The notes under the pieces: model-generated
Database searches by the model: none
Told to the model about the DNA's origin: nothing
The model's input: only the letters and a program-made list of their open reading frames with translations
Program-made: the position numbers and the translations under genes
Assembly: GCA_029260075.1 (NCBI GenBank)
Contig: JAJDDY010000051.1
Span: 1 to 59,256 of the forward strand
DNA from: Phycisphaerae bacterium
GTDB lineage: Bacteria > Planctomycetota > Phycisphaerae > UBA1845
Length of the DNA: 59,256 nucleotides
Direction of reading: 5' to 3'
Shown: one piece after another, positions 3,942-49,722 of the stretch
How the letters are laid out: each line of letters begins with the position of its first letter
How positions within the stretch are numbered: the first letter of the stretch is position 1

Positions 3942-4931
3942 GTGCTAAGAATTGGATTTTGCCGTCGCGTTGTAAATGTTTCGTGTATTTTGTTGGGGGC
4001 AAGCTGTGCGTTCGCCGAAGAGCCGTTGAAGGAGAATTCCACGCTCTCGCAAGTACGACGGGTAATGCCCGAAAGTTTCACCTTGGATGTGGAGATTGAT
4101 CTCCCCGTTGTCCTTCTTATGCCAGGACAGGGTCAGACCACTCGGACGATGCGCGTTACCGTTGGCGAGGACGTGACCGCTATCGTGTGGAAGGCATTGC
4201 AGCTACCGGTCCCCAAGTACTACCCTCCCGACACGGGCGGTTATCAAGGTGGCGACTACGATGCGGATGGCAACCTCATCGTGCATATGTGGTCTGAGGG
4301 TGCAACCTTGCGTGACCAAGGCGTGAATGAGGAGTATTCGGAGAGCATGGGTTTCCGTGCGGCGCCGGACGGAACCGTCGCTGGCAAGACGTCCGGCGCG
4401 TCGTTGTCTCGGCTTCGTCCGTCGGCATCGAACACGATAAGCCTGAATCTCTTGCGCCGAATTCTTTGGGCGCTTGGACGCCCTTGGCCCGATAGTTTCG
4501 GCCGTGAGATTTTGGGGGACTTGAGCGCGGATCAGCCTAAGCGCCTTCGCGCGGCGGGTTCCTGGTCACCGGGGAGCGGTTTCGGTGCGGTGTGCGAGCT
4601 TGTCATCGAGCCATCCAACGGATACCTGGTACGCCAAGCGAGTTTCGGGGCGGAGGGGCAGTCGCCGCGCGCGGAGTGTCGAAGCGAAGGAATTCGTCGG
4701 TTCGGCGATGTGGTATTGGCGGCGCGCGGCGAATTCACCCTTCATCCGGTTGAGACTATCAACGTTCGGCTGATCTCGTTCTCGCCCAAGATGGATCCGA
4801 ATTTGATCGCGGAGGCCCGCAAAGTTATCGCGAGAGCCCAAACCCGTATGGTGCGGGTGTTCGATTACCGTGAAGATCCGACGCGTGCGAAAGTCCGAAT
4901 GGTGCCTGCCGGAGACTTGGACGACGAGTGA
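3942..4931 (+). CDS. Exported protein of unknown family, paralog 3 of 4
   Basis: This 329-residue protein starts at GTG 3942, chosen because a GGAGGA site lies 8 bases upstream. The signal peptide ends in CILLGASCAFAEEP, which is also found in paralog 4 and is nearly identical there in DNA over about 40 bases. Key motifs are DYDADGNLIVHMW, CELVIEPSNGYLVRQASF and the C-terminal VFDYREDPTRAKVRM. It is much closer to paralog 4 than to paralogs 1 and 2, so it reflects the most recent duplication. The stop overlaps by 4 bases a possible GTG start of the Cys-rich remnant at 4928. Function is unknown; export to the periplasm or surface is inferred. Confidence 0.75.
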   Translation: MLRIGFCRRVVNVSCILLGASCAFAEEPLKENSTLSQVRRVMPESFTLDVEIDLPVVLLMPGQGQTTRTMRVTVGEDVTAIVWKALQLPVPKYYPPDTGGYQGGDYDADGNLIVHMWSEGATLRDQGVNEEYSESMGFRAAPDGTVAGKTSGASLSRLRPSASNTISLNLLRRILWALGRPWPDSFGREILGDLSADQPKRLRAAGSWSPGSGFGAVCELVIEPSNGYLVRQASFGAEGQSPRAECRSEGIRRFGDVVLAARGEFTLHPVETINVRLISFSPKMDPNLIAEARKVIARAQTRMVRVFDYREDPTRAKVRMVPAGDLDDE

Positions 4932-5146: not shown

Positions 5147-6139
5147 ATGATGAAAAATGAATGGTCCGTCGGCGTAGTGTTTCTTGTAGCGTGTATTTTG
5201 TTGGGGGCAAGCTGTGCGTTCGCCGAAGAGCCCTCGACGGCGGGTTCCGCGTTTTCCAAGGCACGGCGGGCAAGTCTGGATGTTTTCACCTTGGAGGTGG
5301 AAATGGATCTTCCGGTCATCCTTCTCGCACATGGACAGGGTACTACCACCCGCATACTGCGCGTTACCGTGGGAAAGGATGTAACGGCGATGGCGTGGAG
5401 GGCTTCGCGTCTGCCGCCACCCAAGTACTTTCCGCCCAATACGCACAGTTATCAACCGATCGACTACGATGACGAAGGCAACCTAATCCTGTGGATGCCG
5501 GCCGAAGGCGCGACCATATGCAGTTTAAGGATCCATGAGGAATACTCATCCGGGACTAGCTATCGGGTGGCTCCCGACGGTCGGATTGTTCTGTTGCGGA
5601 AAAATTCCGGAACGTTCTTGCGGCGGTACAGTCCGTCATATTCCAATACAAGCGGTCTGGGGATCTTGCGAACAATTCGGCTTGCGCTCGGGCGGCCGCC
5701 GGTCGATGCGCTGGGCGAGTTGGTAGAAGAGAGTGTGAACCAGGATGGGGCCACGAAGCTTCGTACGACGGGTCGATATTCGCCGTACTCGGGATCCGGT
5801 GTGTGGGAATTTCTCATTGATCCAGGAAACGGTCAACTGGTGCGGAGAGGCAGTTTCGCGACCGGAGCAGGAGAGCCCTGGTTGCAATTCTGGAGCGAGG
5901 GCACTCGTCGATTTGGGGAGGTGGTCCTTGCCCAGCGCGGAGAATACACTCTTGGGCCTCAGCATATCGTATTCCGGTTGATCTCGTTCAAGCCCGAGTT
6001 TGACCCAGCCGTAGTCGCCGAGGCTCGGAAGATCATCGCCAAGGCCCGAACCCGGCTGGTTCAAGTGTTCGATTACCGTGAAGATCCGACGCGCGCGAAA
6101 GTTCGTCTTGTCCCTGCCGGAGATTTGGACAAAGATTAG
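5147..6139 (+). CDS. Exported protein of unknown family, paralog 4 of 4
   Basis: This 330-residue protein has a clear signal peptide (VGVVFLVACILLGASCAFAE). Two consecutive ATGs (5147, 5150) follow a GAGGG site. It is the closest relative of the gene at 3942: shared FTLEVEMDLPVILL, DYDDEGNLILWM, FLIDPGNGQLVRRGSF and VFDYREDPTRAKVRLVPAG. Divergence is highest in the middle third. A Cys-rich remnant lies immediately upstream. It is the last member of the tandem array; the following 138 bases before the convergent minus-strand gene show nothing recognisable. Family and function are unknown. Confidence 0.75.
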   Translation: MMKNEWSVGVVFLVACILLGASCAFAEEPSTAGSAFSKARRASLDVFTLEVEMDLPVILLAHGQGTTTRILRVTVGKDVTAMAWRASRLPPPKYFPPNTHSYQPIDYDDEGNLILWMPAEGATICSLRIHEEYSSGTSYRVAPDGRIVLLRKNSGTFLRRYSPSYSNTSGLGILRTIRLALGRPPVDALGELVEESVNQDGATKLRTTGRYSPYSGSGVWEFLIDPGNGQLVRRGSFATGAGEPWLQFWSEGTRRFGEVVLAQRGEYTLGPQHIVFRLISFKPEFDPAVVAEARKIIAKARTRLVQVFDYREDPTRAKVRLVPAGDLDKD

Positions 6140-7516: not shown

Positions 7517-8158
7517 GGCCCGAGTATACAACAAAATATCGGACAAGACCCGCGCGGCCACAGCGACTTGGCTGACCGGTTGGTGCCGGTTGGTGGGTAG
7601 GAAAGGAAGAACGGGCTTGCGTCAGGTGACGCAAGCCCCGTTCCAACCGCCTGAGAAGTAAGTCAACCGCCGTGCCGATGCGCGCAGATGGGCGGAACCC
7701 TTCCGATTACGGGGGTGGCTCGCAGACGCCCGGACCGCCAACCTCAATTGGGGTCGGTACGTCGTTCGGCGTCACGAATCGAGCCTCCCTAGGGTTCGCT
7801 TACGGGTCCAGCCACATAGTCGCGAGCTGTCAAACACGGAAGTCGAACTTCCAGACTGTGCCCGATTATATCCTCAGGGGCCTAGTGAACCAAATGAGTT
7901 GGAAATTATGCGTCCACGAGCTGAAATGTCACAGGGTCTTGCTGCGTTGACTGGTCGCTTTGACTCTGTCGCACGCAACCGAGAAATCGACGATTCAAGC
8001 CGCTTGGTGGCCGTCCGAAGCGTGGACGGGCTTGCAGCTGGCTGCCTGCTTGCGTTATGGTGGGCTCGTGCCATTCGTCCCGGTACCTTACAAGGCTGTG
8101 GGTCGCGGCCGGACGGGTTGGTCTATGGCCACGCCGGATTCCATCCGAAAAGATAGGG
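7517..8158. other. Gene-poor stretch between GlmU-like gene and repeat element
   Basis: Apart from the hairpin at 7613-7638, I see no credible gene, RNA or repeat in these 640 bases. Open frames here are short and match nothing recognisable. Confidence 0.5.
7613..7638. repeat. Perfect 11-bp inverted repeat (hairpin)
   Basis: GGGCTTGCGTC is followed by the 4-base loop AGGT and its exact complement GACGCAAGCCC. There is no T run on either side, so it is not a canonical intrinsic terminator. It lies about 100 bases upstream of the GlmU-like gene. It could be a leader hairpin or a small repeat. Confidence 0.6.
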
Positions 8159-8303
8159 TAGCAGTCTGTCGAGCAAGGCTGGTAGTGAATCGCGTCGCCG
8201 CGAGCCCGCCCGTGACAGCGGGCCGCGTTCCGGGTCGAGCGGCGGAAATCGCAAATGGATCACCGGCTGGGAGCCGGCGCCACACTTGCTCAACAGGCTG
8301 CTA
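8159..8303. mobile_element. TA-flanked inverted-repeat element, family B, complete
   Basis: The element begins TAGCAGTCTGTCGAGCAAGG and ends with the inverted counterpart CTTGCTCAACAGGCTGCTA, with TA at each outer edge. The interior contains GGCGGAAATCGC and a palindromic CACCGGCTGGGAGCCGGCG. Related copies occur at 24919, 58229 and 58904. There is no coding capacity. Size, inverted termini and TA ends suggest a non-autonomous element moved by an IS630/Tc1-type transposase (inference). It ends 11 bases before the trpA start codon. Confidence 0.72.
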
Positions 8304-8314
8304 AGCGTGCCGAC

Positions 8315-9136
8315 ATGCCATTAGAAAGAATCCAACAAAGATTTGCCGCATCCGCCTCGTTGCGACGTAGGGCGGTGCTCCCGTATTTCACCTCCGGATT
8401 TCCCGACGCGTCGACCGTGGAGGCGATGATTCGACGGGCGGACGACGTCGGTGCGACTGTGGTCGAGCTGGGGATTCCGTTTTCCGATTCGATTGCCGAT
8501 GGTCGGACCATCCAGCGATCGTTCCACGATGTGCTGAAGCAAGGTTGGACCGTCGAGGATACGTTCCAACTTGTGGCGCGGGTTCGACCGCGCGTTGAAT
8601 GCGCTTTGGTGGCGATGGTCTCGTACTCGCTCGTCTGGCGAATCGGTGTACAGGATTTCATGAACCGTGCTGCTCGCTGTGGTTTCGACGGTGTAATCGT
8701 GCCAGACGTTCCGGTCGAAGAGTCGATGATCGCTGCCGGCGCCGCCGGTCGGGCCGACTTGGGGTATGTGGGCCTTGTGGCGCCGACGACGACGTCGGCG
8801 CGTCGTAAGTTGATCGCGCGGTCGTCAACCGGTTTCGTCTATCGGATCGCGATTTCCGGTACGACGGGGGAGCGCACAGATTTCCGGGTCGACGCCATGA
8901 ACGACATCGACGAACTTCGCGATGCGGCTGGCGCGCCGGTGTGCGTCGGTTTTGGAATTAGCACGGCCGAGCAGGTTGGCGCGGCGTGCGTCGTGGCGGA
9001 CGGCGCTATCGTCGGCAGCGCCATCGTTCGTCGTATCGCCGATGCCGTGGACGCTGGTCAGTCGATGGATGACCTTGTGGATACGGTTGGGGGTTTTCTT
9101 TCCGAACTAATCACCGGTGCGGCGCACACTGCGTAA
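8315..9136 (+). CDS. trpA: Tryptophan synthase alpha chain
   Basis: This 273-residue protein cleaves indole-3-glycerol phosphate to indole and glyceraldehyde-3-phosphate in the alpha2-beta2 tryptophan synthase complex. The catalytic pair is visible: Glu51 in VELGIPFSDSIADG and Asp62 in IADG, matching Glu49/Asp60 of the well-studied enzyme. Also present are the start region LPYFTSGFPD, the GFDGVIVPDVPVEE strand, and the phosphate-binding VGFGIS and IVGSAIV loops. The usual SDPIADGP reads SDSIADGR here, a mild departure. Length is normal. trpB is not adjacent. ATG 8315 matches the family start; no clear ribosome-binding site precedes it because a repeat element ends 11 bases upstream, so its leader lies in or next to that element. 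Confidence 0.93.
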   Translation: MPLERIQQRFAASASLRRRAVLPYFTSGFPDASTVEAMIRRADDVGATVVELGIPFSDSIADGRTIQRSFHDVLKQGWTVEDTFQLVARVRPRVECALVAMVSYSLVWRIGVQDFMNRAARCGFDGVIVPDVPVEESMIAAGAAGRADLGYVGLVAPTTTSARRKLIARSSTGFVYRIAISGTTGERTDFRVDAMNDIDELRDAAGAPVCVGFGISTAEQVGAACVVADGAIVGSAIVRRIADAVDAGQSMDDLVDTVGGFLSELITGAAHTA

Positions 9137-14145: not shown

Positions 14146-16752
14146 ATGATCAAATTCTGGCGACTGTCCTGGAATCCGCGGTTGCTCGTGTTGTTGTCGA
14201 TCCTTAGCCTGTCCGGCGTGGCTGTCGGTTGGGGTGAGGGTGGGCGCCAACAACGATCCACTTCGTCTACTGCAAATCAACCTAGCGGCGTGAGCGGGCG
14301 GTCTGAAGCCGAGAAGGTCGACGTGGTAGGCCCGCTGGCCGGGCCGAGCACCGTGGCGGTATCGCCGAACGGAACGGTCGCGCTCGTCGGTCCACCGGTT
14401 GGCGGTGCCGATTTGGTTAGCGTGTTCGTTCACTTCGCGCCGATCGCGGGTGTTGTTACGCCTCAGCTCGCGGCTGATCGGCGCGATGGCGTTAACGTAT
14501 GGACGGCCAACGTCGGCGGGCATGTCAAGTACGAATACAAGACGGTTCTTCCCAACACGATCAACCTGCGCAACATCCCGCGTGCGCAACTTGCGGCGCT
14601 CGCCGCCATGCCGGGCGTCATTAAGGTCGAAGAAGATCGAGTGATGCACGCCTACCTCACGGTGAGCACGCCGCTTATTCGAGCTACGCAAAGTCAAATC
14701 ACCGGAGCGGGCCTCTCCGCAGACGGTAGCGGTGTTCGCGTGTGCATTATCGACACCGGTATCGATACGGATCACGTCATGTTCGCAGGACGGATCGATT
14801 CGGCAGCCGGTCGCGACTTTGCCAACAACGACAACAACCCTGAGGACGACAACGGCCACGGGTCCAACGTAGCCGGTATCGCGGTTGGTGGTACGGGAAT
14901 TTTCGATACGCGCTGTAGCGTATCGACCGAACTCCAGGGCGTGGCGCCGGCTGCGACGTTGATTGGCGTTAAGGTTTTGGATTCGGCTGGTAGTGGTTTC
15001 AACTCTGACGTGATCGCGGGTATTAACTACGCGGCCGATCAAACCGGCGCCGGTGGTCGTTGCGACGTCATCAACTTGAGTTTGGGTGGCGGTGTGTTCG
15101 CGGGGGTTTGTGATTCCGACAGTTCTGCCATCGCGGTGAACAACGCCGAAGCGGCTGGCGTTGTCGTTGTGGCGGCGGCGGGTAACGAAGCCAACGCGAA
15201 CGCCCTGGGTTCACCCGCGTGCGCGTCCGGCGCTATCGCCGTGGGGGCGGTGTTCGACAACGATTTCCCCAACTGTGAAAACGCCCAGTCCAGCTTTTCG
15301 TGGTGCGGCAATGCTGCATGCACGACAACGCTGTGCACGGACACCAACATCACGGTCGACTCGCTGATTTGCTTCAGCAATCGAAGCACCCAACTCGACG
15401 TCACCGCACCGGGTTGTGACGCTCGCTCGGCGGGCATTACTGCGGGCGGGACATCGTTCGCCAGCCAATGTGGCACGAGCCAAGCGTCACCGCACGTCGC
15501 CGGTCTGGCGGCGCTGCTTCTGAGCGTCGACGCCAACCTCACCCCGGCTGAGGTGCGACAGTTCATCCGCGACGGAGCGATCGACATGGGGCCGGCCGGT
15601 TTCGACATCGGGTACGGGTTCGGACGCATCGACGCAATAAATACACTATCGCTGCTGACCCCGTGCGTCTTGAATTCGGATTGTGACGACTTCGACAGTT
15701 GTACGATCGACCTGTGTACGGCCGGTTCGTGTTCCAACACGCCTATCAGTTGTGCTGCGGGCGAAATCTGTGTTGGCGGATTTTGCGTACCGCAGGGGGC
15801 CTGCTGTGCCGGTGCGTTTTGCACGATCGACACGTCGGCGGGTTGTGCAGGTTCGGGTGGAACCTATCTGGGTGATGCCACGGTTTGCGGTAGCGGGACG
15901 GCTGGGAATCCGACGGTCTATGCGAACACGCCGAACGTCGCGATTCCTGACGGCGGTGGCCCGGGCACTCCTGTAACCGACACGATCACCGTGCCGGATT
16001 CGTTTCCCATCGGTGACTTGAATGTCGACCTCACCATTACGCACACGTGGGTGGGCGATGTGACGGTCACGGTGTCGCATCTTGGCACTACGGTTACCGT
16101 GTTGGATCGCCCCGGCGTACCTGCGACGCAGTTTGGCTGCGACCAGGACAATTTCTCCGGCATCATTTTGGATGATGAGGGGACCGGCGGAGCGGTCGAG
16201 GCGCAATGTGCCTTGAATTTGGCATCGCCACCGAACTATACACCGAATAATCCGCTGAGTGTCTTCGACGGCATGGACTCGGCCGGCGTGTGGACGATCA
16301 CCGCGTACGACAGTGCTACGCCCGACCCTGGTACGCTAAACTCCTGGTCGCTTCACATAGATGGACTCGGTTCGAACCCGTGTACAGCGACGTGTTTGAC
16401 CAATCCCGATTGTGACGACGGTGTGTTTTGCAATGGCGCCGAAATTTGCTCCGCCGGTTCGTGTCAAGCCGGCCCGCCGGTGTGTACTGCGACCTGTGAG
16501 CACTGCGACGAAGTCGCGGCCATGTGTGCGCTGTGCGCCACCGACGTCGACGGAGACGGAGCGATCGGCGCGAGCGACATCAGCATGTTGACCTCGTGTT
16601 TCGGAGCATGCTACGCCCCGGCCGATCCGTGCGCCGCCGCCAATGTAGACGGCGATGCGGGCGGGTGCGTGGGTACCGGAGACTACTCGGCGCTCGTGGG
16701 GTGCATGAACCAGACATGCGGGACGTGTTCGAACTGCACCAGTCCGCCCTGA
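14146..16752 (+). CDS. Secreted subtilisin-like (S8) protease with P-domain and dockerin-like tail
   Basis: This 868-residue protein has, in order: a signal peptide (to about residue 33), an inhibitor-like propeptide region (MPGVIKVEEDRVMH), and an S8 catalytic domain with Asp203 in IIDTGID, His238 in NGHGSNVAG, oxyanion Asn347 in AAAGNEA and Ser445 in GTSQASPHVAG. A Cys-rich linker follows (NSDCDDFDSCTIDLC) with a GACC module, then a proprotein-convertase-type P-domain (about 588-742, with TITHTWVGDVTV and DSAGVWTITAYD), a second Cys-rich stretch and a dockerin-like tail of two Asp/Gly motifs (DVDGDGAIGASD; VDGDAGGCVGTGD). All catalytic residues are intact. It probably acts outside the cytoplasm on proteins. 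ATG 14146 is chosen for the signal peptide. It may dock to the cohesin-like proteins downstream (inference). Confidence 0.9.
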   Translation: MIKFWRLSWNPRLLVLLSILSLSGVAVGWGEGGRQQRSTSSTANQPSGVSGRSEAEKVDVVGPLAGPSTVAVSPNGTVALVGPPVGGADLVSVFVHFAPIAGVVTPQLAADRRDGVNVWTANVGGHVKYEYKTVLPNTINLRNIPRAQLAALAAMPGVIKVEEDRVMHAYLTVSTPLIRATQSQITGAGLSADGSGVRVCIIDTGIDTDHVMFAGRIDSAAGRDFANNDNNPEDDNGHGSNVAGIAVGGTGIFDTRCSVSTELQGVAPAATLIGVKVLDSAGSGFNSDVIAGINYAADQTGAGGRCDVINLSLGGGVFAGVCDSDSSAIAVNNAEAAGVVVVAAAGNEANANALGSPACASGAIAVGAVFDNDFPNCENAQSSFSWCGNAACTTTLCTDTNITVDSLICFSNRSTQLDVTAPGCDARSAGITAGGTSFASQCGTSQASPHVAGLAALLLSVDANLTPAEVRQFIRDGAIDMGPAGFDIGYGFGRIDAINTLSLLTPCVLNSDCDDFDSCTIDLCTAGSCSNTPISCAAGEICVGGFCVPQGACCAGAFCTIDTSAGCAGSGGTYLGDATVCGSGTAGNPTVYANTPNVAIPDGGGPGTPVTDTITVPDSFPIGDLNVDLTITHTWVGDVTVTVSHLGTTVTVLDRPGVPATQFGCDQDNFSGIILDDEGTGGAVEAQCALNLASPPNYTPNNPLSVFDGMDSAGVWTITAYDSATPDPGTLNSWSLHIDGLGSNPCTATCLTNPDCDDGVFCNGAEICSAGSCQAGPPVCTATCEHCDEVAAMCALCATDVDGDGAIGASDISMLTSCFGACYAPADPCAAANVDGDAGGCVGTGDYSALVGCMNQTCGTCSNCTSPP

Positions 16753-45451: not shown

Positions 45452-46225
45452 ATGGCCGTGGAACGAAAGGTGCCCGTTGAAGACCCGCCCGCAGGAGCGC
45501 CGGAGTGGTTGGTCACCTATGGTGACGTGATGACGCTTCTGCTTTGCTTCTTCGTCATCATCGTTTCGATGAGCGAGGTCAAAAAGGACGAGCGTTTTCA
45601 GCAAGTGATGGAATCGTTGCGGCGAACGTTTGGCGGATACGTCGGTTCGGTCGGCAACGTGCCGATCGAAGGCGACCCGACGAACGCGTTGATCGTGAAG
45701 TTGTTGGAAATCGAAATCCCCGAGCCGACTGACAAGAAGGGTGACGCCGACGAAGAAGGTATTCATGGTCGACGATTTCGCGTGACCAACGTGCGCGACG
45801 GACTTGAGATTGTGGTCGGTGGGAAGATCACCTTCGAGCGGTTCAGCGCGACGTTGAAGTCTGAAGCGGCAGACCTTGTCGCCAAGACGGCGGCGCTGAT
45901 GGTCGGGTACAACACGAAAATCCTTGTGCGCGGACACGCCACCCGCGAGCCGCTTCCGGAAGATGCTTTGTACGAAGATCAGCGAGATCTTTCTTACGCC
46001 CGTGCCCGCGCGGTGGCGCTGGCGTTGGAACGCGGTGGTATTCGTCGAAGTCGCTTGCTTCCGGTGGCTGCGGGCGATACTGAACCGGTTGTGCGCCAAG
46101 CGTACGACGAGCACCGACGCGCGTTGAATCGACGCGTCGAGATATTGGTCACGGAGGAGTTGATTGACGATTACGCCGGCAGCACGGTGGCTGCCGATTT
46201 GAAGGAGTCTTCTGATGGCCCCTGA
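45452..46225 (+). CDS. motB: Flagellar motor stator protein MotB
   Basis: This 257-residue stator partner has the plug helix with the essential ion-carrying Asp25 in VTYGDVMTLLLCFFVIIVS, and a C-terminal OmpA-like peptidoglycan-binding domain (ILVRGHATREPLPEDALY, LSYARARAVALAL, RALNRRVEILV). The OmpA domain has the usual RVEI-type ending. Whether it uses H+ or Na+ is not clear. The last 11 bases overlap fliL. Confidence 0.93.
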   Translation: MAVERKVPVEDPPAGAPEWLVTYGDVMTLLLCFFVIIVSMSEVKKDERFQQVMESLRRTFGGYVGSVGNVPIEGDPTNALIVKLLEIEIPEPTDKKGDADEEGIHGRRFRVTNVRDGLEIVVGGKITFERFSATLKSEAADLVAKTAALMVGYNTKILVRGHATREPLPEDALYEDQRDLSYARARAVALALERGGIRRSRLLPVAAGDTEPVVRQAYDEHRRALNRRVEILVTEELIDDYAGSTVAADLKESSDGP

Positions 46226-46745
46226 ACAGGTCGTGACTGAAGTAGAGCAAAAATCAGGCGGGAAGAAGCGAATAGGCCCGATCGTCGTGGTCGTGCTGCT
46301 GATGCTGGGAGAGGGTGTAGGCGTTTTTTTCCTGGCCAAGATGCTGGGAGATCCGCCGCCTTCTGCATTTGGCGCCATGGACGCAGGCTCTGCGGGCGAC
46401 GACGCCTCCGGCGAAGGTCGTGCCCTCGCCGAACTGGAGATCGCCGAGTGCCGTCCCAGCAACCTCACGTCTGGAAAGCTGATATCGATCGATATTCACG
46501 TAATAGCCCTGGTGGTTGCGGCAGACCTTGAGGATATAGAGAAGCTGGTGCGGCAAAAACGAGCGAGGCTTGAAGACGGCATCAATACCGTCATTCGCAG
46601 TGCTGAGCTAAAGGATATCAACGAGCCCACCTTGGCTACGATCAGGCGACAACTCAAGTCTCGATTCGACCGGATTTTCGACGATCCCGATCTGATTAAG
46701 GATGTTCTCATCCCCCGACTGAACCAATCAGGCCGGGGGGTTTGA
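46215..46745 (+). CDS. fliL: Flagellar basal body-associated protein FliL
   Basis: This 176-residue single-pass membrane protein has a short basic cytoplasmic N terminus, a membrane helix (IGPIVVVVLLMLGEGVGVFF), a linker rich in Ala/Gly/Asp, and a periplasmic domain ending KSRFDRIFDDPDLIKDVLIP. FliL associates with the stator. GAAGGAG lies 7 bases before ATG 46215, which overlaps motB. In most clusters fliM follows; here fliN follows. Confidence 0.85.
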   Translation: MAPEQVVTEVEQKSGGKKRIGPIVVVVLLMLGEGVGVFFLAKMLGDPPPSAFGAMDAGSAGDDASGEGRALAELEIAECRPSNLTSGKLISIDIHVIALVVAADLEDIEKLVRQKRARLEDGINTVIRSAELKDINEPTLATIRRQLKSRFDRIFDDPDLIKDVLIPRLNQSGRGV

Positions 46746-46823: not shown

Positions 46824-47723
46824 GTGGCAGACGAAGCGCAAGATCAGACGCAGGATTCGGGCGAAGGCATCAGCCAAGCCGACATCGACGCCATGATGGC
46901 GGGCGCTGGCGGAGATGCGCCCACACCTGACGCCGAGTCACCGGAATCCCCCACGCCCGAAGCCGATCCCACTGGCGACCCACAGGCGATCAACCAAGCC
47001 GATATCGACGCCCTCATGGGCAACCAAGGCGCCGACGAGGCCGTTCCCGCGCCGTCCGATGCGCCCGAGGAACAAGCCTCCGAAGGCGTCAAGCAATCCG
47101 ATATCGATGCCCTACTCGCAGGGGCCGAAGGCGAGTCCTCAGCTGCACCGGAATCTGTCGAAGCGGCGGCCGGCGAGGCTACGTCCGTGGATCAATCCGA
47201 TATTGATGCGCTGCTCAACGCCGCCGGCGCCGTGCCTGAAGAAGCCGTGGCGACGGCGCCCGAATCACAGCCCGATACCCGAACCGATACGCTTGGCCGT
47301 CCCTTCGACGCGGACGCTGCCGCCATGCAGGCGGCGATCGAGGAAGAGCGTGCAGAGGCCGCCGCTGCTACCCCCGCGCCTGAAGCCCGTCCGAGTGTGC
47401 CCGCACCTTCCACCAGCGAGGTGACGTTGCAAGACTTCGCCGGTTCGTCGATCGCCGATGTGGATCCGAAACGTGTTACCATGCTCAACGACGTCAGCCT
47501 GCGCGTGAAGATCGAGCTGGGGCGGACGCGTATGCTACTTGAAGATGTGCTCAAGCTCGACGACGGCAGTGTCGTGGAACTCGACAAGCTGGCCGGCGAT
47601 CCGGTAGACGTGATCGTGAACGATCGCCTAGTTGCACGCGGCGAGGTGCTCATCCTCAACGATAGTTTTTGTGTTCGAATCAGCGAGGTGCTTTCGCACG
47701 ATCCGCATAGGGTTAGCGCATGA
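46824..47723 (+). CDS. fliN: Extended FliN-type motor switch protein with four DIDALL motifs
   Basis: This 299-residue protein is more than twice the size of E. coli FliN (137). The C-terminal third (about 212-295; [55 protein letters not shown]) is a typical FliN/SpoA domain forming the C-ring base. The N-terminal 135 residues are acidic and carry four evenly spaced motifs: SQADIDAMM (17-25), NQADIDALM (57-65), KQSDIDALL (90-98), DQSDIDALL (123-131). A single such motif (SQ-x-EIDALL) is the CheY-P-binding tail of FliM or FliY. No FliM middle domain is present. The GTG start is supported by GGAAGGA. It overlaps fliO by 4 bases. Clockwise/counter-clockwise switching may work through this tail (inference). 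Confidence 0.88.
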
Positions 47724-48589
47724 TCCGTTCACTAGTTTATCTCAGTAGCGGGCGCGCAACGTCCCGTCCTACGATTCGCCATGCGCGGCCCAAGGCGCGG
47801 TTGATGCCCGCGTGGGTAGTGTTGGCCACGCTGGTGGCCGTGTCATCGACGTCGGCGGTCGGGGAGGTGGAGACGCCGCGCGTCGGCGAGCACGGCGTGG
47901 CCACGGCCACGTCGAATCAACCCGTAGCGGTCGACGGCGGAAGTGTTGAGGATAATCGAACGAAGTTAGTCGTCGATGCGAACGATTCCAAGAGCGCAAC
48001 GTCGAGTGCTGCGACCGCCGATCGAACGGTTGGCCGGACAGTGATCAGCCGGTCCGGTCGGGCGGACCGAACGCGAGCCAACACACGCCGAATGGCTGAT
48101 AGCCTTGTGGCGCGGGATGATTCGCCGTGGTACCGCACAGGGTTCGGCTCGCTGGCGATTGTGTTGCTGTTGGTCGGAAGTGTGGCGTGGGCGGCGCGCC
48201 GATGGCTGCCCGGATCGCGGATGCGCGAAGACGGCATGTTGCGTGTCGTCGCGCGGGCTTCGTTGACCCCCAAGAGCAACGTGGCGCTACTTCGTCTCGG
48301 TCGGCGATTTGTCTTGCTGGGTGTTTCCGGTGAGCGTGTGTCGATGTTGTCGGAAATCACCGATCCGGAAGAGGTTTCGGAGCTGGCGCTGCGTGTCGGT
48401 TCTACCCCGACGATCTCCCGTTCCGTCTTCGATCGTACGTTGGATGCGGAAAGCATGGACTATCAACACGCCGAGCCCAAGGCGAGCGCAGACGTGGCGC
48501 CCCCGGCGAGACGGCGGGTGCGCAAGAGCGCGTCTCTGCAGGACTTGCTCGCGAAAATACGAACGTTGCAGACCGGCCCGCGGACTTAG
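47720..48589 (+). CDS. fliO: FliO-like flagellar export protein
   Basis: This 289-residue protein has a long N-terminal part with a possible signal segment ([20 protein letters not shown]), a Ser/Thr/Asp-rich periplasmic stretch, a single membrane helix ([20 protein letters not shown]), and the FliO-type cytoplasmic motif [20 protein letters not shown] and [16 protein letters not shown]. FliO stabilises FliP during gate assembly. It overlaps fliN by 4 bases and precedes fliP. The name rests on layout, motif and position. Confidence 0.8.
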
Positions 48590-48879
48590 CTGATCGATCG
48601 AGCGGCGTAGGTCTGATTGTCGAAGTGAAGCCGGTTGTGGCCGGCGACGGTGAACTGGTTCGCACGCGTCGGATGTCGCGCGAGCCTTTTTTTGATGTTC
48701 CGCGGCGACGAATACGCGGGGCGGTCTGACTGGTTTGTGGGTCGCGGCGCGCGGATCGCGTCGCGAAATCGTCCGGTGCAGTGTCTGCCGTTGTGGCTTG
48801 AACGCCTCGGACACAAGCGAGCTCCCCCATGTGGCGGGGTGCTCGGCGTAGCACCGATTACTGCGCGGCGGAGCGGCGC
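48590..48879. other. 290-base gap between fliO and fliP
   Basis: I find no certain gene. A short in-frame stretch (GLIVEVKPVVAGDGELVRTR then MSREPFFDVPRRRIRGAV) runs up to a stop at 48727-48729 with a GTG at 48625, but it is too short to call. No repeat element is present, unlike other gaps in the cluster. Confidence 0.35.
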
Positions 48880-49722
48880 ATGTTCGAACGGCATGGAAGC
48901 CCCAGAGTCGGTCGCCTGTTGGCGGTCGCTCTGCTTGTATTGATGTGCTGCGCTGAGGGTGCGCACGCCCAAAGCGAATCCGTGCCACAGACCACGGCGC
49001 CCGCCGAAGTCTCGAACGCATACATTCCCAACGTATCCCAGTTTCTCCCTTCCGCTACCGACGCGAAGCAAGTTAGCTCCAGTCTGCAGATTCTCGTTCT
49101 GCTTACCGTTCTGACGCTCGTTCCTTCCATCCTGGTCATGATGACGGCCTTCCCGCGCGTCATTGTCGTCTTGGCGCTGCTGCGCCAAGCCATCGGAACG
49201 CCACAGCTTCCCCCTGGTCAAGTTCTTCTCGCGCTATCGCTATTTGTCACGGCGCTTGTGATGGCGCCGACGTGGCACAAAATTCAAACGCAGGCTGTCA
49301 CGCCCTATCTCGACGGCGGGATGGGACAGCGCGAGGCGTTCGACATTACTTCGGGCCACCTCAAAGAGTTCATGTATCGCCAGATACGCGAAGCCCGAAG
49401 CGACGAGGATGTCTATCTGTTCTTGTCGTACGCCGAGGGGCGTGAGATCGACGACACCGAGGAAATCACGGTGGATGAGGTGCCGCTGACCGTGATGATT
49501 CCGGCGTTCATGCTCAGCGAGCTGAAGACCGCGTTCATCATGGGGTTTCGTATTTATCTTCCGTTTCTCGTCATCGACATGGTCATCGCCACCATCTTGC
49601 TATCGATGGGGATGATGATGCTACCGCCGGTGTTGATTTCGTTGCCGTTCAAAATATTGCTGTTCGTGCTGGCGGATGGTTGGCATTTGTTGATTGAGAC
49701 GTTGCTGTTGAGCTTCGTCTAA
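48880..49722 (+). CDS. fliP: Flagellar export gate protein FliP
   Basis: This 280-residue inner-membrane protein builds the export gate with FliQ and FliR. It has a cleavable signal peptide (GRLLAVALLVLMCCAEGAHA), then ILVLLTVLTLVPSILVMMTA, FPRVIVVLALLRQAIGTPQL, PPGQVLLALSLFVT, and MIPAFMLSELKTAFIMGF, IYLPFLVIDMVIATILLSMG, all very conserved. ATG 48880 follows GGAG by 7 bases; an upstream start at 48829 is unlikely. Confidence 0.95.
   Translation: MFERHGSPRVGRLLAVALLVLMCCAEGAHAQSESVPQTTAPAEVSNAYIPNVSQFLPSATDAKQVSSSLQILVLLTVLTLVPSILVMMTAFPRVIVVLALLRQAIGTPQLPPGQVLLALSLFVTALVMAPTWHKIQTQAVTPYLDGGMGQREAFDITSGHLKEFMYRQIREARSDEDVYLFLSYAEGREIDDTEEITVDEVPLTVMIPAFMLSELKTAFIMGFRIYLPFLVIDMVIATILLSMGMMMLPPVLISLPFKILLFVLADGWHLLIETLLLSFV

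Follow-up and report, generated by a model that had tools for sequence, protein, structure and literature searches.

The switch protein FliN of a Phycisphaerae bacterium carries four motifs of the CheY-P docking type on a long N-terminal region. This region probably serves as a multivalent tail on which phosphorylated CheY (CheY-P) docks, a variant of the docking peptide of FliM and FliY. The gene is in a 59,256-nucleotide (nt) stretch of DNA (contig JAJDDY010000051.1), which was analyzed over its whole length and is called the window here. Judged from the protein sequences, the docking motif on FliM of the same genome is intact, and the sites on FliN are additions. We infer from these sequences that the tail would bind CheY-P, that all four sites could be occupied simultaneously, and that the response of the motor would be altered. 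The data suggest that these bacteria have built extra signal-docking sites into the motor switch.

The FliN gene of the window and its motifs

The fliN gene has a GTG start and occupies positions 46824 to 47723 of the forward strand, the strand of all features of its cluster given below. It encodes 299 amino acids (aa). The initial two thirds form the motif-bearing tail, and the FliMN_C domain, which builds the C-ring, makes up the final third (47484 to 47693; Pfam residues 221 to 290; E = 4.8e-21). The protein scored 99.1 bits against the fliN model TIGR02480 (cut-off, 84.05), and Foldseek matched its C-terminal domain to solved FliN structures. Thermotoga maritima FliN (1o6a) was the top match in fold (E = 1.5e-6) and also matched in sequence (E = 5.2e-22). 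The gene order is fliL (46215 to 46745), fliN, fliO (47720 to 48589; Pfam FliO E = 2.9e-12), and fliP (48829 to 49722; Pfam FliP E = 4.8e-73). The Pfam match of fliL was below the cut-off (E = 0.00099; 20 bits versus 24.6), but a fliL homologue was present in 87 of 89 FliN loci of the order, and fliO in 88 of 89. Assignment to FliN rests on the SpoA/FliMN_C domain and on the position of the gene inside a flagellar cluster, in which the fliL score is weak. A first-pass annotation of the window had described an extended FliN after fliL with four motifs 33 to 40 residues apart, and the sequence, Pfam, and TIGR02480 all agree with that description.

Neither the FliM middle domain PF02154 nor a CheC-like middle part was found in this protein by Pfam, which at E values up to 1 gave FliMN_C only; a FliY or a CheC fusion is thereby ruled out. 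A strict FliY (CheC fused to FliN), for which the annotation had advised a search, was not found in the genome either: its three FliMN_C and two CheC matches are on separate contigs or stretches.

The four motifs have the form Q-[AS]-DIDA-[LM]-[LM] and are at positions 46869 to 46898, 46989 to 47018, 47088 to 47117, and 47187 to 47216. Their glutamines are residues 18, 58, 91, and 124, giving spacings of 40, 33, and 33 residues. All four match the core of the CheY-P docking peptide, Q-x-[DE]-[IV]-D-A-[LM]-[LM]; the peptides used for comparison were those of Escherichia coli FliM (ILSQAEIDALLNG), Bacillus FliM (VLSQNEIDALLSA), and Bacillus FliY (RLSQDEIDALLNG). By sequence, the FliN motifs belong to the FliM docking type.

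Across the six frames of the window, the pattern [DE][IVL]D.[LMI][LMIF] matched the four FliN motifs and nothing else. We also searched the DNA with the motif written as a degenerate pattern (CARDVNGAYATHGAYDSNHTNHTN), using the same pattern reversed as a control. In the 4.92-Mb genome the pattern had four matches, all in the window fliN, and the control had none; across the order there were matches in 41 of 101 genomes, again with none for the control. Exclusivity to switch proteins, which holds in the window's genome, fails in its relatives, where unrelated open reading frames (ORFs) also match. Among the matches fetched from outside the main fliN, seven were in other ORFs (L450, L452, L453, L455, L456, L458, and L459) and five were in FliN2, the second FliN paralogue (at loci including L449, L451, L454, and L457). 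Within the window fliN, the repeated DNA is limited to about 31 nt at each motif (68 to 87% identity to the two reference copies), and no longer DNA repeat taking in the linkers was reported. Motifs 3 and 4 are identical in their eight residues, with synonymous differences in three of the eight codons.

The AlphaFold2 model of FliN, built on 15 sequences, is of modest confidence (mean pLDDT, 62). It predicts a short helix for each motif (residues 18 to 29, 58 to 65, 91 to 101, and 124 to 134, the second with low confidence), a longer helix at residues 163 to 181, and then the C-terminal domain. The linkers between the motif helices have low pLDDT values in this model; their composition is biased toward A, P, D, E, and S. 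The longer helix belongs to a second conserved element of the tail, GRPFD followed by the helix (47274 to 47366; pLDDT, 82 to 84 per block).

Elsewhere in the window, the ORFs at 3942 to 4931 and 5147 to 6139 look by eye like tandem duplicates; they share AEEP close to the start and REDPTRAKVR toward the end.

Docking motifs on FliM, FliN, and FliN2 in related genomes

The first-pass annotation had proposed that the docking sites were moved or multiplied. Multiplication of the motif stands, with four copies on FliN, but displacement does not. The genome search for fliM that it recommended gave a single FliM domain match on another contig (G000:C37:13206-13781; E = 1.8e-65), and this FliM keeps its own tail motif, LDQSEVDALLSA (LDQSEVDALL). 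No fliM was found within the window. The annotation had named two findings that together would count against its reading, a normal FliM elsewhere in the genome and poor conservation of the FliN motifs in relatives; the former is the case, whereas the latter is not, as described below.

FliM was present in 92 of the 101 genomes of the order. Among the 91 FliM tails read, the motif occurred in 67 of 68 from genomes with CheW and in 17 of 23 from genomes without it, never more than once per protein. Of the six CheW-less FliMs lacking it, four have P in place of Q (LDPNEVNALL twice, LDPSEVDALL, and LNPQDVDALL) and two have no such stretch. Note that the motif count demands Q at the first place, so that Q is invariant by construction; genome G322, whose FliM reads DPSEVDALL, was scored as motif-less. 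With the FliM motif intact in this genome and in the order, relocation of the docking site off FliM is ruled out.

In the order, fliM and fliN are usually encoded apart, and the window's genome is no exception in this respect: FliM was found in none of the 89 FliN loci of the order (about 2 to 5 kb each). Around FliN in 80 loci from named Planctomycetota it was likewise not found on the forward strand, which was the strand searched. A fliM does adjoin a FliN gene elsewhere in the phylum, for example in G040. Genome G340 encodes a second FliM (LSQDEVDALL; locus L124, contig G340:C29), and a FliN-like match follows it at a distance of about 440 bases downstream; the two may belong to a second flagellar system.

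The motif count in related FliNs, another check recommended earlier, bore out the repeat. Among the 101 genomes of the order, three had no FliN match and eight with cut or weak matches were left out (G341, G346, G351, G355, G358, G364, G370, and G393). The remaining 90 FliNs had no motif in 25 cases, one in 26, two in 20, three in 15, four in 2, and five in 2; that is, at least one motif was present in 65 and at least two in 39. The 90 tails hold 129 motifs, compared with 0.47 expected from shuffled tails. In 80 FliNs from named Planctomycetota, which include metagenome-assembled genomes named Phycisphaerae, Pirellulales, Planctomycetales, and Rhodopirellula, at least one motif was present in 53 and at least two in 38. 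By sequence, FliN motifs are therefore widespread in the Planctomycetota, and four copies are near the upper end. Many relatives have AL or AM in the FliN motif where FliM has LL, which may mean weaker predicted binding. Outside the phylum, Q-x-[DE]-I-D was absent from all five FliN tails read (E. coli, Cupriavidus, Curtobacterium, Octadecabacter, and the lateral FliN of Azospirillum). Pseudomonas FliN possibly has one DIDALL-like motif.

The window's genome encodes FliN2, a third FliMN_C protein of 113 aa, on contig C16 (G000:C16:274308; L004, 1411 to 1752), in which the docking motif is absent. FliN2 proteins of relatives (loci L400 to L449) often have one N-terminal motif, for example MPESQEDIDALLAE, and the sequences indicate that FliN2 lost its motif in the window's genome. 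By the same comparison, as many as three C-ring proteins carry docking-type peptides in the order.

FliN has EIE where the window protein has DID in lineages that mostly bear the names Pirellulales or Planctomycetales; in these genomes, picked by FliN with FliM read afterwards, FliM has EVE or EIE. Where both motifs were present (84 genomes), the pairs of acidic residues were 62 D/D, 18 E/E, and 4 D/N; D never occurred with E. Four of the 18 E/E genomes include one FliN copy that reads D, and in G378 the FliN2 residue is E and the FliM residue is D. A matching residue in FliN and FliM is what a shared partner would be expected to cause, on evidence that comes mainly from one deep split. CheY in 28 of the 30 genomes searched, from both groups, keeps T87, A90, Y106, K109, F111, and K119 (E. 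coli numbering), which we take to be the positions that matter for FliM binding. Twenty CheY columns separated the D and E groups, five of them merely from shorter matches ending. A change in CheY that accounts for D or E is unconvincing: position 107 alone is near what we take to be the FliM-binding face.

Association with chemotaxis genes

In the window's genome the docking peptides occur alongside a chemotaxis system, with CheA, CheX, a tandem CheC-like protein, and CheY encoded in one cluster. CheX (E = 7.4e-23) is directly before CheY, and its gene overlaps the longest CheY ORF. The tandem CheC-like protein (409 aa; E = 2.1e-11) has two CheC stretches. In locus L168, the CheC-like gene is at 7546 to 8775 and CheX/CheY is at 14293 to 15176.

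CheW domains were found in 71 of the 101 genomes of the order, a count that includes carriers of CheA, of which the CheW domain is also a part. The FliN motif was present in 55 of 65 CheW-bearing genomes versus 10 of 25 CheW-less genomes (Fisher's P = 5.7e-5). When only genomes at least 90% complete were considered, the numbers were 45 of 51 versus 4 of 16 (P = 3.6e-6). Permuting the CheW labels within families gave P values of 0.0001 for motif presence and 5e-5 for copy number. The direction was the same in the window's family, f1 (28 of 28 with CheW versus 2 of 6 without), and in families f100 (6 of 7 versus 3 of 9), f96 (9 of 17 versus 1 of 5), and f97 (8 of 9 versus 2 of 3). In genus g212, CheW occurs together with two FliN motifs in G373, and G306, G347, and G375 have neither CheW nor a FliN motif; these three retain a decayed copy of the motif, VLSPAEIEALRV or VLSPTEIEALVA. 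FliN2 of this genus follows the same pattern, with the motif in the CheW-bearing sister and not in the three CheW-less species. Overall, the FliN2 motif was present in 29 of 33 genomes with CheW versus 9 of 17 without (P = 0.012) in a sample of 50 that was picked regardless of motif but drawn from weak second matches and thus not random.

An independent-pairs test on the supported branches of a FliM plus FliN tree gave six pairs, of which, on average, 3.8 agreed, 0.2 opposed, and 2.0 were equal (median P = 0.125). The co-occurrence of motif and CheW is thus consistent in direction, and its tree-based strength is unproven with only six pairs. Ten of the 65 CheW-bearing genomes, mostly of family f96 (8 of its 17), have no FliN motif, and the motif is therefore dispensable for chemotaxis. 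Ten CheW-less genomes still have it, some of them incomplete. The GRPFD-plus-helix element was present in 39 of 65 CheW-bearing versus 3 of 25 CheW-less genomes; because this second element also tracks CheW, the link with CheW is not specific to the docking motifs.

Proposed role and comparison with known systems

According to PMC9126983, the CheY-P site of FliM and of FliY is "EIDALL"; in that paper and in PMC7355467, the FliM peptide captures CheY-P, and its linker may act as a tether to second sites located on either FliM or FliN. By analogy, the C-terminal domain would put FliN into the C-ring, from which the tail would hang as a flexible brush, offering CheY-P as many as four capture points on each FliN in addition to the one on each FliM. 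Because the tail would catch CheY-P on the ring, the captured molecule would be kept beside a second, switching site there. Docking would be multiplied, not relocated.

The motifs might instead bind CheY-P mainly as a sink, with CheX or CheC dephosphorylating it at the motor and the job of FliY split over two proteins. Both CheX and the tandem CheC-like protein are indeed in the chemotaxis cluster, and in FliY this docking peptide is joined to a CheC-like part and a FliN domain (architecture from PMC7355467). Yet neither CheX nor CheC is fused to FliN or adjoins it, and a sign of their binding to FliN is absent; we consider a sink unlikely. If the motifs were helices with a role apart from CheY, such as ring assembly or export, their likeness to docking peptides would be superficial. 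That the conserved GRPFD and helix also track CheW indicates at least one additional function of the tail, but the motif was lost along with chemotaxis while FliN and FliM stayed, and the choice of D or E is common to FliN and FliM. We give this reading little credence.

It is very improbable that the tail is a neutral, low-complexity region grown by repeat slippage, with no function of its own. Copy number does vary from 0 to 5 among relatives, and the linkers have the biased composition noted above. However, the DNA repeat is confined to the motif block, motifs 3 and 4 differ only synonymously, and the excess of observed over expected motifs is far from what shuffled tails give. The preferred reading remains that of a docking tail for CheY-P.

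We extend this reading, tentatively, to the planctomycete C-ring as a whole as a CheY-P antenna. In the Salmonella structure, as given in PMC11087270, FliN is the most abundant ring subunit, with 102 copies to 34 of FliM. At this stoichiometry, four motifs per FliN would bring the docking sites on FliN to about 400, compared with 34 for FliM; the estimate would fall with FliN2 as part of the ring. If this is true, the brush could bind a large fraction of all CheY-P in the cell, and the number of motifs would set the sensitivity of the switch, with chemotactic gain tuned by the peptide count on the rotor. It would also account for the 0 to 5 copies among related species and for FliN2 proteins with one motif. 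Nature provides in these bacteria a graded set of motors, from 0 to 5 extra sites, that would allow capture (local concentration) to be set against the second binding step in switching, and genomes with a flagellum and no chemotaxis are ready-made controls.

Textbooks and reviews assign the CheY-P docking peptide to FliM alone or to both FliM and FliY, in one copy per protein. The N-terminal EIDALL peptide of FliM has the same core and precedes a flexible linker, to which the low-pLDDT linkers of the window FliN may correspond, but the window motifs are on FliN, in four copies, and are added to an intact FliM copy, whereas FliM has at most one. The C-terminal domain resembles that of E. coli and Salmonella FliN in sequence and fold; unlike the window protein, E. 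coli FliN has only 137 residues and a tail without Q-x-[DE]-I-D. Bacillus-type FliY, as in Bacillus velezensis, shares with the window FliN a FliN-type C-terminal domain and an N-terminal docking peptide, but it has a single peptide where the window FliN has four, and the window FliN is without the CheC part. The two-paralogue C-ring of Helicobacter pylori, with FliN-FliY (PDB 5xrw), has a possible parallel in the second FliN-type protein of this genome; FliN2 differs in being small, without a CheC part, and with its motif lost. No description of repeated docking peptides on FliN was found in the literature searched, outside which most subscription journals lie. A docking peptide on a ring protein is thus already known, and the repeated form on FliN is, as far as can be told, apparently new.
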